64,000 nucleotides of DNA from contig CM022673.1 in NCBI GenBank assembly GCA_012295275.1, forward strand, positions 23,537,081-23,601,080, in the 5' to 3' direction. Below, piece by piece: positions 22,901 to 62,900 of the stretch; positions within the stretch are counted from its first letter, which is position 1, and each line of letters starts with the position of its first letter. This DNA is from Chrysomallon squamiferum. Its lineage: Eukaryota > Mollusca > Gastropoda > Neomphalida > Peltospiridae. A program made the position numbers and the translations under genes. The notes under the pieces were generated by a model. The model was not told the origin of the DNA, did no database searches, and saw only the letters and a program-made list of their open reading frames with translations.

Positions 22901-25900
22901 TGGTCTTCCACACAATTTATTTCAAGTTAATAAACAATTAACTACATTTATAAATAATTCAGAAAGGATATATGTAGAAAACACATGTAACATTTTTATG
23001 TGTGAACAGTAAAATGATGATTTCTTTAGGAAACACATCTCACTTTGTATGCAAACAGTAAAATAATGATACAAATCTTACTTTGTTGTGCATGCTAAGA
23101 ACCTGAAAATTCTCCTTCTCCAATCTCACAATACACCCAACTGTTTGAGCACTTAAAATAAAAGAAGAATATAAACAAATACTCATACATTTAAAATTGT
23201 ACAAGATTTGTCTTTAACTATATATTGTTCCTATGATATCAGTGTTTAAATAAATATTACTCATTCGAATTGTAAGATATTATAAAATACAAATTATTCA
23301 TTCTAGCTGTATTTTACTATTTAAATACAAATCACTTATTCTAGCTGTATGATGCTACTGTTTAAATACAAATTACTTGTTCCAGCTATATGAAGTTAGT
23401 GTTTAATTATAAATGACACATTCCAACTTTGATATTACCATTTAAATTCAAACTACTTTTCCTAACTGCATGGCATTAGTGTTTAATTATAAATGACTCT
23501 TTCTAACTAAAGATATAAGTGCTTTAAATATAAATTACTGGTTCTATCTGAATGATATTAGTGTTTATATTTATGTTTGTGTTTAAATATAAATTATTAA
23601 TTCTAAGTCTATGATATTAATGTTTAAATTCAAATTACTCATTCTAACTGTACACAATTAATGCTTAAATAAACATTACACACTAATTGCACAAGATTAG
23701 TGTTTAAAGAGAGGAATGAAGATAATACTTTATAAAAATGAAGCACTTAACATATTTTACTTAAAGTTATATGGTGACCGACATATGGTTAAGGACCACT
23801 TAGATGGCAAGACAGGAAATCTGATACTTGATATGCTACTCTTTCCTATTACCATCAAGGACTCTTTTACATGCACGACCCTGCAGCTAAAATATTGTGA
23901 TCTTTGTTCTGTCAGGTGTGGAGCATTGTCAGGAATGTGAAATGGCTCAACACACTGAGAGACCAATTCAAATAATCACTGCACTGCCTGGAACAGCTAC
24001 CTTTATATGTGTCTTGTTCACTAACTTGTTCTAAATACAGGAGACTTATACTGACCAGATTTGTGACTTACTTAGTGTAAATTTTGTATTTTAGGGCAGG
24101 ACACTTACTCAAAATTTTGAGTTTGTATACAGGATACTCTAAGTTCAGTGTTTAAAGGCAGCATACTCAAACTATACAAGATTTGTGTTTAATTACACAA
24201 TACTCTCACTAAATATACAAGATTGGTTTACATACAGGATGCTCTAATCTGTGTTTAAATACTCACACTAACTGTACAACATTTGTGTTTAATTTACATG
24301 ATATTCACACTAAATATATAAGATTGGTTTAAATACTCACTCTAACTGTACAAGGTCACCAAACTGATACTGTCCCAGTGAGTCGACTCCACTGGCCATG
24401 TCTGTACACAGCTGTAAGTCTTTAGGCAAAACTTTTAGCTTTGAAATACAGAAATGTATAATTCAGTTGTCTAAATACAACTTTTTTCTGGTAATCTAAT
24501 AAAAATAATATTTAATAAATGAAATTTATTCTCAAAAACAGAAGTATGTTTTAAGCTATTTAATTCAGCAGCTCAATATATTTAACTTTTCAAACAGAAA
24601 ATCATTTAAAAAAAGTCATTTGATAAACATGTATCATATCTCAATTGACAAATAACCTTCTAGGTGTGTATATTTTTTTTACCAAACACTTTTTTCATAG
24701 TTCTGCTGTACAAAAGCTACTGGTAAGATGAAAACAATATTTCACCTCATGCATGGTCAGATCTGAGAACAGAACAACCAATGAATCTTCAACTCTGACA
24801 ATAAGTCCAGTGTCTCCTTCGTATCGGCCAGCACACACCTTCACATGGTCTCCCATCTTGAAATATTTTCTCAACTCATGAGCTGGGAACTCCAGAGGAT
24901 CCTAAAAATGTTAAATTCAATATTTAAACTGAACCAACAATTACAGCTTAAGCAAAAAAATATAATTTAAAAATTATTTTAACACAACTATATATTATTC
25001 AATTACATTACTATCCTCACATTTGTAAGATAATATCACATTTACTAAAATAATTTACTGTTCTGGTTTAAAATTAATGTCACACTGTAAGTACCTTGAG
25101 ATCTTCATGTTTCGGCATGATGGTGATCTTGTTCCCATCACATCGAAGAATTTTTCCCTGAAGATTAATCAACTCTCCTTCACACACCTCCACAACATCA
25201 CCAGGTGCAAAGTTGTGAGTGACATCACTGGTGGATTTACTCTGCTCAACAACTGCATTGAGATAAGTAATATCCAATTCATTTTATCTCTGTATCTGTG
25301 TGAACAATGTATGTGTATGTATATGTGTGTGTGTGTGTATAGGTTTGCATATGTATGTGCGTGTATGGCATGTGTTTCTGCATATGTGCACATTTGTGTA
25401 TGGTTATGTATGGTGTGTGTATGAGTGTGTTTTGTATTTATTTGCTCTTATTTCGGTCAGGTGAATGTTGTCTAAGATTTTGATAAAGATACCTTCTACA
25501 TCCATGCTATCTGGCTGATCTTCAAATCTTTCAAGTTCTGCTAGAGTTGGTTTCACTCCTTCAGCAACCTAAAACAACATTTCCTTTAGTATATAATATC
25601 ATATATAACAAACAACTCAAAACCACAGTTAAAACACCTAACTTTCTGATATCTCTCAAAATGTATCTACATTCATGTAAAAATTAGATATATTTCACAG
25701 ATATCTCTATACATGACTGAATGTTAGCATGTGTGTGTGTTCTGAGAACATTCAATAATAAAACTGCTAAGAGGTACATATATTTTTACTTAAAACATTA
25801 AGCAACACCAAAATTACAATGTAATTAAACTCACTATAGCTGACATGGCAAAACTTTTGAAAAGAAAACCCTTTTCGACTGTATCTGTTTCCCTCAAAGA

Positions 25901-59900: not shown

Positions 59901-62900
59901 GAAAATACAGTATAGAACTGACAGTATGCTATAGAATACAGTAAGTAACTGTCAGTGTCTTGTAGAATAGACAGTATATAACTGAAAGAGTCTTGTAAAA
60001 TACACAGTATATAACTGTCAGTGTCTTATAGAATACACAGCATGTAACAGAGTATTTTGTAGAATACCCACTGTATAACTGACAGGATCTTGTATGCAAC
60101 TGAGTGTCTTGTAGACTACACAATATATAACTGACAGTGCACATTTTATAAAAACACCTTGGGTTAAGAACTTAATCTGTTCCACAACTCGGTTCGTAAA
60201 CTGAATTGTATGTAAACTGAAGTGAAGTCAGACGCACGAATGCCACGCTCATTTTGCAATTATTTCTTTCTTAACCTCTACTATGATATCTTTATACTTT
60301 CCATCAGCATTATTGCTTTCAATTTTTGTTTTCTTGGGTGCCATATTGTATAGGGTGTCATAAAAAATATACACATAAAAGCAGCAATATTTAAAAAAAG
60401 GCAAGAACACAATCTCATTGCAAAAGCTCTTGAGCTGCAACTGCATACTGAAAACTAAATGCCCTAAATCATGATATATATTTGCAATAGGCCATGCCTA
60501 TAATCCTTACTTTGACCTTGGTTTTGACATAAGCATCTATTATCTTTACTAGATGTTTCACATCAAAAGAAAGCTTGTTGTGGCACGTCGATGTAGTTCG
60601 TAAGTCAGAACATTATTTGTAAACCAAGACAAAAATTGCCCAAGATCACGGTTCATAATCCGATTTGTTTGTGCTTCGAGGCATTTGTAACCTGAGGTTC
60701 CACTGTATACCATGTACCATGCATGTTACAAAAACATAAATATGTACAATGCATATTATAAAAATAGAAATATCATATGCAATGCATTTTATAGAAAACA
60801 AACACTTACCAGATTGTAACATCATCTCCTGCTTTGCATGTATCTACAAGGTCATCTAGCATGATGACCCACATGGAACGTGGAATTGTACCCACAGCCA
60901 ATTTTTGAGCCTGTTCTTGAATTTTCACTTCCTGGTAATTTCGACCTTTCACTGGAACATTGCCTGCATCATTGAATTGAAATGAATAATTTAAACTCAT
61001 TAAAATTAATCACTGACAAAAATAAAGTGTTATTAAGTAATTTAAGATAAAGGTAAGTTCATACCTGTGTTATTAACCAGGGTGAAATTGAAGGAGTTGC
61101 ATGCTTCGTTAGGACATGATCTGGGTTTACAAACAGTGTAGTACTGATCAGGATCGCTCTACAACAGAAAATAATTCTGACTATACATCTATAATACACA
61201 GATCTAATTAGTCAAATGTAAAGTAAAATCAATCTACCAAGCAAAAAAATATAAATAAAATGTATGAACTAAACACACCACCTACCAGTGTATCAAATAG
61301 CTGTACAAACCTCTGACAATACCAACCTGTACATTAAAGATGTTCCTGCACTTGGTACAAACAAACTCTTTTTCATGCTCCAGCAATCGAACAACTGTTG
61401 TCCTGATAACAGTACCTACATTAATATACAAATACAGGTAAAAATAGCTGTGGATAAAACTATGTACAGAAACATTTTTAACAGATAAAGTTGATATAGA
61501 TATACCTTTGACAGATAAAGTTGATGAAGAAATACATGTGACAGATAAAGATGATGTAGAAATACATGTGACAGATAAAGATGATGTAGAAATACATGTG
61601 ACAGATAAAGTTGATGTAAAAATATTTGTGACAGATAAAGTTGATGTAGAAATGATAAAGTTGATGTAGAAATACCTGTGACACATAAAGTTGATGTAGA
61701 AATACATGTGACAGATAAAGTTGATGTAGAAATACATGTGACACATAAAGTTGATGTAGAAATACATGTGACACATAAAGTTGATATAGAAATACCTGTG
61801 ACAGATAAAGATGATGTAGAAATACCTGTGACAGATAAAGATGATGTAGAAATACATGTGACAGATAAAGATGATGTAGAAATACCTGTGACAGAGAGGA
61901 AAGATCCAATGTCTGAAGCTCGTGGCAGGAGTGAACGTGTTAACTCTGGACACACTGGAAGAGCCATGATCCTGGCATGAACATTTGGTTTGAGTGTCTA
62001 CATTAAAAATATAAAACTATTAATGTAAATAAATAATTCTGGCATGAACATTTGGTTTGAGTGTCTACATTAAAAATATAAAACTATTACTGTAAATAAA
62101 TAATCCTGGCATGAGCATTTGGTTTGAGTGTCTACATTAAAAATGGAAAACTATTAATGCAAATAAATAATCCTGGCTTGAACATTTGGTTTGAGTGTCT
62201 ACATTAAAAATGTAAACAATATCTGTAAATAAAAACGCAATTAACCTCTGTTTTTTGAATAAAATAATTTCAGTATATCAAATATTTATTCTTTAACAGA
62301 AATAAATGTATGTTTTTTTTGAGTGGCATAATTTCAGTATATCAAATATTTTTGCTGAAACAGAAATAACCATCTGTTTGCTGAGTGGATGTGTGGTCAG
62401 GATGATGTGCTGGGCCTCTTTCAGACTGGAGTCAAACACAGGAAGAATCTTGTCTGGTTGTGACAGCAGCAAATCACACACTGTCATGTCATTTTCAAAC
62501 AGGTTGAGAGCACTGTAAAACAAGTCAAATCTTACCCTTAATAATAAATCTTGTTTTAAATCTAGTATAATAATAATAATAATAATAACCAAAACCAAAC
62601 GAATATGTTACAACTGTATAAACAGCGCCTATATTATATTACTTGTACTAAAATTATAAATTACTAACATATTAAGCAATTAAATACCAGTATTTCATAC
62701 AATAAAATACAATTACTTTCACTATATAGAAATAAAATACAATTATTTTCACCATACATAATGAAATAAAATTATTAACTTTCACTATAGTATTAACAAA
62801 TATATTACTAACTCAACAACTACAGGAAAATGTTCTTCGGTTTCTTCCTCCAACATGATACACACTAGTTCGTTTTCATGCATTTTCAAAGCATAGTGAC

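Follow-up and report, generated by a model that had tools for sequence, protein, structure and literature searches.

The 64,000-nucleotide stretch of Chrysomallon squamiferum DNA analysed here (C9:23537081–23601080, called the window below) holds three unrelated genes, MCM9, SPT5 and an E78-like nuclear receptor, whose introns contain tandem arrays of a particular composition: the repeated unit includes the end of an exon together with the start of the intron, or the end of an intron together with the start of the exon. The question raised by this locus is how rows of duplicated splice junctions come to stand in conserved genes. The reading favoured here, with a probability of about 0.76, is that they are minisatellites of the kind called mirages in amphioxus: duplications arise at random, are purged where they fall within exons, and are hidden by splicing where they span a junction. 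The host genome comprises 404.6 Mb in 22 contigs, and a single assembly was used throughout.

Reading frame, splice sites and comparison with relatives were used to place the exons of MCM9 and SPT5 (both on the reverse strand) and of the receptor gene (forward strand): 18 in MCM9, 17 in SPT5 and 7 in the receptor. The models start downstream of the first exons in all three genes, and that of SPT5 also stops short of the last exons. A preliminary description of the window had named ten junctions at which an array spans or adjoins the splice site. At each of them the exon edge (20 and 28 bases) was compared with the adjoining intron, the four best local matches were summed, and the score was set against 300 dinucleotide shuffles, for which the smallest possible p is 0.003, and against 37 other introns of the same genes. 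Exon-derived sequence was found in the neighbouring array at seven of the ten junctions. These include all six that had been named as spanning, and none of the 37 other introns reaches their score: p = 0.003 and 0.007 for the MCM9 exon 4 donor, and 0.003 each for the acceptors of MCM9 exons 4 and 10 and the donors of SPT5 exons 10 and 15 and E78 exon 6. The seventh is the acceptor of MCM9 exon 18, previously considered a likely case: the 28-base comparison supports it (p = 0.003), the 20-base one weakly (p = 0.033). In a single-match scan of all 78 junctions in the window, the seven cases have z values from 2.1 to 12.2, the lowest being the MCM9 exon 4 donor, where only 10 exon bases are repeated. 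The donors of E78 exon 2 (z 5.6) and MCM9 exon 6 (z 4.0) also scored high in that scan, and the junction test described below, which uses sequence from both sides, did not confirm them.

MCM9 exon 4 is the clearest case in the window, with an array on each side. The acceptor array (61969–62216, reverse strand, period 67, 3.7 copies) spans the junction at 61997, and its unit consists of the intron end ...ttttaatgtag and about 27 of the first exon bases. Three additional copies lie upstream, and the copy adjoining the exon is the true exon start. The donor array (61481–61895, reverse strand) extends over 415 bases with a period of 30, in which the last 10 exon bases, TCTGTCACAG, are followed by 20 intron bases; the real donor is at 61886/61885.

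Five other arrays have exon-derived sequence. The MCM9 exon 10 acceptor array (58591–58756, reverse strand, junction 58620) has 2.8 diverged copies (70% matches) of a unit of about 60 bases, some 30 of them exonic. With a period of 43, the exon 18 acceptor array (55510–55871, reverse strand) stops 5 bases short of the acceptor (exon start 55504) and carries the 28-base exon similarity. In the E78-like receptor, the exon 6 donor array (46862–47192, forward strand, period 42, 7.9 copies, 69% matches) crosses the exon end at 46879 and is built from about 18 exon bases and about 24 intron bases, including gtaagt. Degenerate copies of the exon edge TTTGATGTAGATGCCATAAG reappear after SPT5 exon 10 (exon end 26554) in an array at 26279–26480 on the reverse strand, with a diverged unit of about 37 bases. 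After SPT5 exon 15 (exon end 24341), the array occupies 23245–24354 on the reverse strand; its diverged unit of about 41 bases joins the exon end CTTGTACAGTTAGA to gtgagtatttaaac. Rows from Tandem Repeats Finder span 23245–23679 of this array, and the first copies are closer to the donor.

Three further arrays had been described as abutting a donor exactly, with no claim of exonic content. For two of them this is close to what was found, since the MCM9 exon 11 array (58021–58194, reverse strand) begins 1 base into the intron and the SPT5 exon 6 array (28458–29071, reverse strand, 15.4 copies of a 40-base unit) begins 2 bases into it. The edge of the MCM9 exon 16 array (56291–56843, reverse strand, exon end 56828) is ambiguous, and exact abutment does not hold: one Tandem Repeats Finder row begins at the 13th intron base and another enters the exon by 16 bases. 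The edge test detected no exon-derived part in the arrays at exon 11 (p = 0.24 and 0.28), exon 16 (p = 0.28 and 0.22) or SPT5 exon 6 (p = 0.82 and 0.77).

A sample of 238,915 bases from 51 other places in the genome, picked solely by Pfam matches to MCM, Myosin_head and Kinesin, was used to look for the same feature elsewhere. Exons were predicted with a simple caller that found 201 exons scoring above 25 on the gene strand, compared to 13 on the other strand. It placed 66 of 74 internal exon edges correctly in the window, on which it had in part been trained. A junction was considered duplicated if the sequence from both of its sides recurred together within 150 bases in the intron. By this definition 15 of 399 sampled junctions were duplicated at score 12, compared to 0.2 per dinucleotide-shuffled set, which is above chance. 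Among exons supported by Pfam, 8 of 256 junctions were duplicated at score 14 (4/128 donors and 4/128 acceptors); the genes are kinesins and myosins spread over seven contigs. One of the eight (C13:26349403–26352552, position 547), at an AG-rich exon end, probably reflects a miscalled exon; the 8/256 includes it, and seven are trusted. A further supported junction, the ninth, came from the array and gapped tests described below: the donor of a kinesin exon at position 7517 of C9:14199500–14209499 (locus L074).

One of the sampled examples is a kinesin donor at position 6176 of locus L070 (C3:19866000–19875999), where seven copies stand in register, including the real junction. The 41-base unit comprises 30 exon and 11 intron bases, no copy differs at more than one of the 30 exon bases, and the array has 97% matches. 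Across copies in register, omitting the doubtful C13 case, the donor GT was kept in 18/18 and the acceptor AG in 8/9 (one acceptor copy belonging to an exon without Pfam support), figures that are descriptive only, as the copies were chosen by similarity. The median period of the arrays is 34–37 bases. The printed copies bear out the earlier statement that such arrays make introns longer and leave rows of decoy splice sites in them, and that the units are made from each gene's own junctions, with varied lengths and sequences, in unrelated genes elsewhere in the genome as well.

Three further observations concern the sampled kinesin loci. The L074 gene has junction duplications at two junctions, the acceptor of one exon (6811) and the donor at 7517, as MCM9 exon 4 has on its two sides. 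A kinesin acceptor at position 1504 of C14:1683732–1686914 shows strong recurrence of its exon edge in the gapped test (z 15.5) and was not caught by the ungapped scan. Positions 844–1180 of L070 consist of 5.6 copies (96%) of a 60-base unit in which coding-like sequence follows ttttcag; this may be an exon repeated in tandem, or an array in which an exon was called falsely.

The favoured reading can be set out as a series of steps. Short tandem duplications would arise at many sites along gene bodies, presumably by slippage or unequal exchange. Those within exons would harm the protein and be removed. A duplication across a junction would turn exon|intron into exon|intron exon|intron, and splicing at the exon-adjacent copy would keep the mRNA unchanged while further copies became intron. 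The array would then expand, partly homogenise and decay as any intronic minisatellite does. On this account the arrays are probably harmless since splicing hides them, and the decoy copies would rarely be used.

The expected scarcity of arrays inside exons was observed. Only one of the 201 called exons contains an array, and that one is doubtful, while 9.2 would be expected from the intronic density of 35 arrays per 128,394 bases (P = 0.001), so exonic arrays are about nine times rarer. An unfiltered position test pointed the same way, with 49 of 5320 exon-internal positions in duplications compared to about 8.8% of intronic ones (donor-like positions, score 14), a control value that takes in simple A+T-rich sequence and is superseded by the filtered test below. 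Junction-spanning arrays are not depleted as the exonic ones are, save for a deficit of donors at low scores. In MCM9 the copy that yields the conserved protein is the exon-adjacent one: nine relatives picked from 120 listed align without gaps across the junctions of the exon 4 donor (7 covered), of exon 10 (9 covered) and of exon 18 (9 covered), which would fit undisturbed authentic splicing.

The remaining part of the reading, that duplications fall at random, was addressed by comparing junctions with intronic positions at several score thresholds, after a DUST-like filter for low complexity. (A filter on distinct 3-mers per length was dropped in favour of the DUST-like score, as it removed both MCM9 exon 4 arrays.) At score 14 in the sample, 4/200 donors lay in duplications compared to 10.0 expected (P = 0.050) and 10/199 acceptors compared to 9.6 (P = 0.87); in the window the counts were 3/39 donors (6.8 expected) and 2/39 acceptors (6.9 expected, P = 0.036, below expectation). 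Donors in the sample were not in excess at strict scores either (3 vs 3.5 at score 24, 2 vs 2.7 at score 30). A gapped test on 28-base edges gave, at z ≥ 4, 5/114 donors vs 7.2 and 5/109 acceptors vs 6.1 in the sample, and fewer than expected in the window (donors 3/38 vs 11.6, acceptors 3/38 vs 11.4); at z ≥ 8 the sample had 3 donors vs 3.3 and 5 acceptors vs 2.8.

Because long arrays weigh more in both of these tests, a third is fairer for targeting: the unit of each array, at its smallest good period, was dropped at random within its own intron. In the window, 4/23 arrays spanned a junction (4.1 expected), and in sample and window combined 12/58 did (8.2 expected, P = 0.089). The best-scoring period, which is sometimes a multiple of the smallest, gave larger expectations (sample 8 vs 4.9, window 4 vs 5.4), and the smallest good period was preferred. 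With Pfam-supported and window exons only (77 array–junction pairs), 8 arrays spanned a junction compared to 5.9 expected (P = 0.225) and 4 touched one compared to 2.8 (P = 0.31). Dropping the unsupported exons removed the spanning case at position 1120 of C3:19866000–19875999, where the called exon is itself an array. With exons so restricted, the comparison with random intronic placement, which the preliminary description had proposed as its own check, speaks against targeting, and the junction-directed process that it had suggested is not supported. At most thresholds junctions are no commoner in duplications than intronic positions are. A modest excess at junctions, up to about twofold, may be compatible with the counts.

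Several results fit the favoured reading less well. Donors in the sample were scarce at low scores (4/200 vs 17.0 at score 10, P < 0.001, and vs 12.9 at score 12, P = 0.006), which counts against full tolerance; donor duplications may be partly selected against. Acceptors in the sample exceeded intronic positions at strict scores (8/199 vs 3.7 at score 24, P = 0.035; 7/199 vs 3.0 at score 30, P = 0.034; both uncorrected). Because of this acceptor excess and the donor deficit, the reading is graded slightly lower than it would otherwise be. In the array test, 8/35 sample arrays spanned a junction compared to 4.1 expected (P = 0.035), a count in which some exons are unsupported and one is itself an array. 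Adding three diverged arrays of the window to the supported set raised the count to 11 vs 5.9 (Poisson P = 0.038), the re-examination behind it covering the window arrays alone. The copy of a conserved exon edge departs from its source more slowly than a pair of intronic copies diverge from each other, and a small excess could be simulated in this way. The exonic count comes from short pieces of sequence, in which arrays are somewhat harder to detect. Before MCM9 exon 4 the protein linker is variable, with small gaps in two of the seven covered relatives.

The acceptor excess at strict scores and the counts of 8/35 and 11 vs 5.9 are what would be expected if junctions were true hot spots, with a process linked to transcription or splicing (for instance R-loops, or pausing at splice sites) starting the duplications. 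This is considered unlikely, as the excess shrinks to 8 vs 5.9 when supported exons alone are used, most thresholds have none, the window falls below expectation, and the exonic share of the unit differs by locus, from 10/30 to 30/41 bases. A different proposal is that the arrays are retained for a function, their decoy or dual-specific sites tuning splicing or adding protein variants, as in human UBC, where the available part of one report describes stochastic splicing of dual-specific arrays (PMC10809524); the accessible text of another reports that minisatellites at exon–intron boundaries give rise to alternative splicing of certain duplicated genes in humans (PMC2812944). Judging by its sequence, the donor array of MCM9 exon 4 partly resembles the UBC array. 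Eleven sites in it match ACAN|GTATT, and the four with AG|GT, the real donor among them, score as donors (5.8; window median 5.6) and as acceptors (5.4–6.5; median 6.3), as in the UBC array, while the 30-base unit is open in the frame of the gene for seven units. The other seven sites have AT|GT and score poorly as acceptors. Thus 4/11 putative sites qualify, where every unit of a dual-specific array would carry AG|GT, and the array is taken here as intronic. The added peptide would break a conserved SVTG-TVIR stretch that is free of insertions in all seven covered relatives, the length of many other units is not divisible by three, and the frequency of junction arrays is close to neutral placement. 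Retention for function is accordingly given very little weight. A combination of the two proposals, with mild hot spots (about 1.3–2 times random), intact decoy rows at a few percent of junctions, and some arrays (MCM9 exon 4 first) dual-specific and at times adding in-frame peptide repeats, is speculative and rather improbable.

That several unrelated genes are hit could also suggest a repeat family, or an introner-like element inserted at splice sites. Introner elements are a case of one process affecting many introns; here every unit holds the exon edge of its own gene, lengths and sequences differ, and no common element was seen, nor any unit common to different genes among the printed copies of the window and sample genes. 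The 736-base block around MCM9 exon 4, the sole block so examined, was found at a single place in the genome by a search that passes over very common words. The view taken in the preliminary description, of a process rather than a repeat family, therefore holds up, and an inserted element is extremely improbable. The chance that the arrays were made by misassembly is likewise next to negligible. The assembly may hold small base errors, as the SPT5 and MCM9 exon 19 frames described below suggest, but the copies have diverged to very unequal degrees (69–97% matches), unlike assembly loops, and outside the window duplicated junctions were found at 11 separate places of the sample, in part at unsupported exons.

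The preliminary description had regarded the process as undescribed, which is not so. In the available passages on amphioxus (PMC3087553, PMC3902484), mirages are minisatellite-like tandem duplications whose unit spans an intron–exon boundary. They occur at both 5’ and 3’ boundaries, with units of 10–160 bases and many copies that keep AG/GT, in Adh3, the globins BflGb6 and BflGb9, troponin C and PGBD5 (the last two from PMC3902484); the name is attributed in PMC3087553 to Canestro et al. 2002. The arrays described here share the unit of exon edge plus intron edge (at seven window junctions and in the sample genes) and the presence at both donors and acceptors (the two sides of MCM9 exon 4; 4/128 and 4/128 in the sample). 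They differ in that the host is a mollusc, and in that the accessible amphioxus text reports splicing fidelity and length instability, where the present case is made from sequence.

Two other systems are similar in part. The available portion of PMC2812944 describes variable minisatellites, with units of 30 bases on average, at exon–intron boundaries of human segmental-duplication genes, with 27 intron modifications. Tandem units of about 30 bases that expand at boundaries and alter gene structure are common to both. Half of the human arrays are in coding exons, however, and those at boundaries create introns or alternative transcripts in paralogs of recent origin, whereas in the mollusc old conserved exons retain their edge and the copies are intronic. 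Intron gain by tandem duplication of AGGT segments (the Rogers model; potato RdRp in the accessible part of PMC4974935) also has splice signals within the duplicated unit, but the mollusc duplications are placed at existing introns. Mirages in molluscs were not found reported in the searched literature, which leaves out most subscription papers and is weak evidence of absence, and a cone-snail intron paper concerns only microsatellites in its available text (PMC3862624). Within the same limits, and with the same weakness as evidence of absence, no comparison of junction arrays with random placement was found, the amphioxus passages included. As far as seen, the feature is of a known kind, and the phylum is new for it.

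Some properties of the window itself should be recorded. The introns of MCM9, SPT5 and E78 are richer in arrays than those of the sample (17/39 vs 33/235 introns, Fisher P = 5.6e-5). The SPT5 exons are each open singly, yet the joined set gives no single open frame (15 or 21 stops in two joinings). A conserved SPT5 exon ending near 25835 (window positions ca. 25835–25941) seems by eye to have one surplus base for the frame, perhaps through a minor error in the assembly. MCM9 exon 19, the coding last exon, contains a 48-base tandem array (54476–54779) in which a partial 28-base unit shifts the frame, leaving two overlapping open frames (54651–55148 and 53969–54802) with a common tail; the shift may be a genuine length variant or an assembly error. 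In a tree of the window MCM9 protein and 27 relatives hand-picked from 120 listed, it groups with bivalves and gastropods (a set of 7 rows, support 95/89, within which bivalve and gastropod affinity are not resolved), and the best-scoring relatives among those listed are from Pinctada, Lottia and Lymnaea. Two short frames, at ca. 60240–60350 on the reverse strand (MAPKKTKIE...) and 41330–41414 on the forward strand (MNPKKAKDS...), resemble the starts of pogo/Tigger-type transposases.

Junction arrays of this kind are pitfalls for gene annotation, and they are also natural competition tests among near-identical splice sites. The L070 kinesin donor would be especially suitable: a unit of 41 bases shifts the frame, so that the use of most decoys would be plain in RNA. 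The junction duplications on two sides of one exon or gene, in the L074 kinesin gene and at MCM9 exon 4, make clustering within genes of interest. The results support a simple rule, that splicing conceals a tandem duplication when it spans a junction and leaves the same duplication exposed inside an exon, and the 8/256 supported junctions of this sample give a rough frequency for mirages. Their extension from amphioxus to molluscs suggests that mirages are a general by-product of minisatellite-rich genomes.

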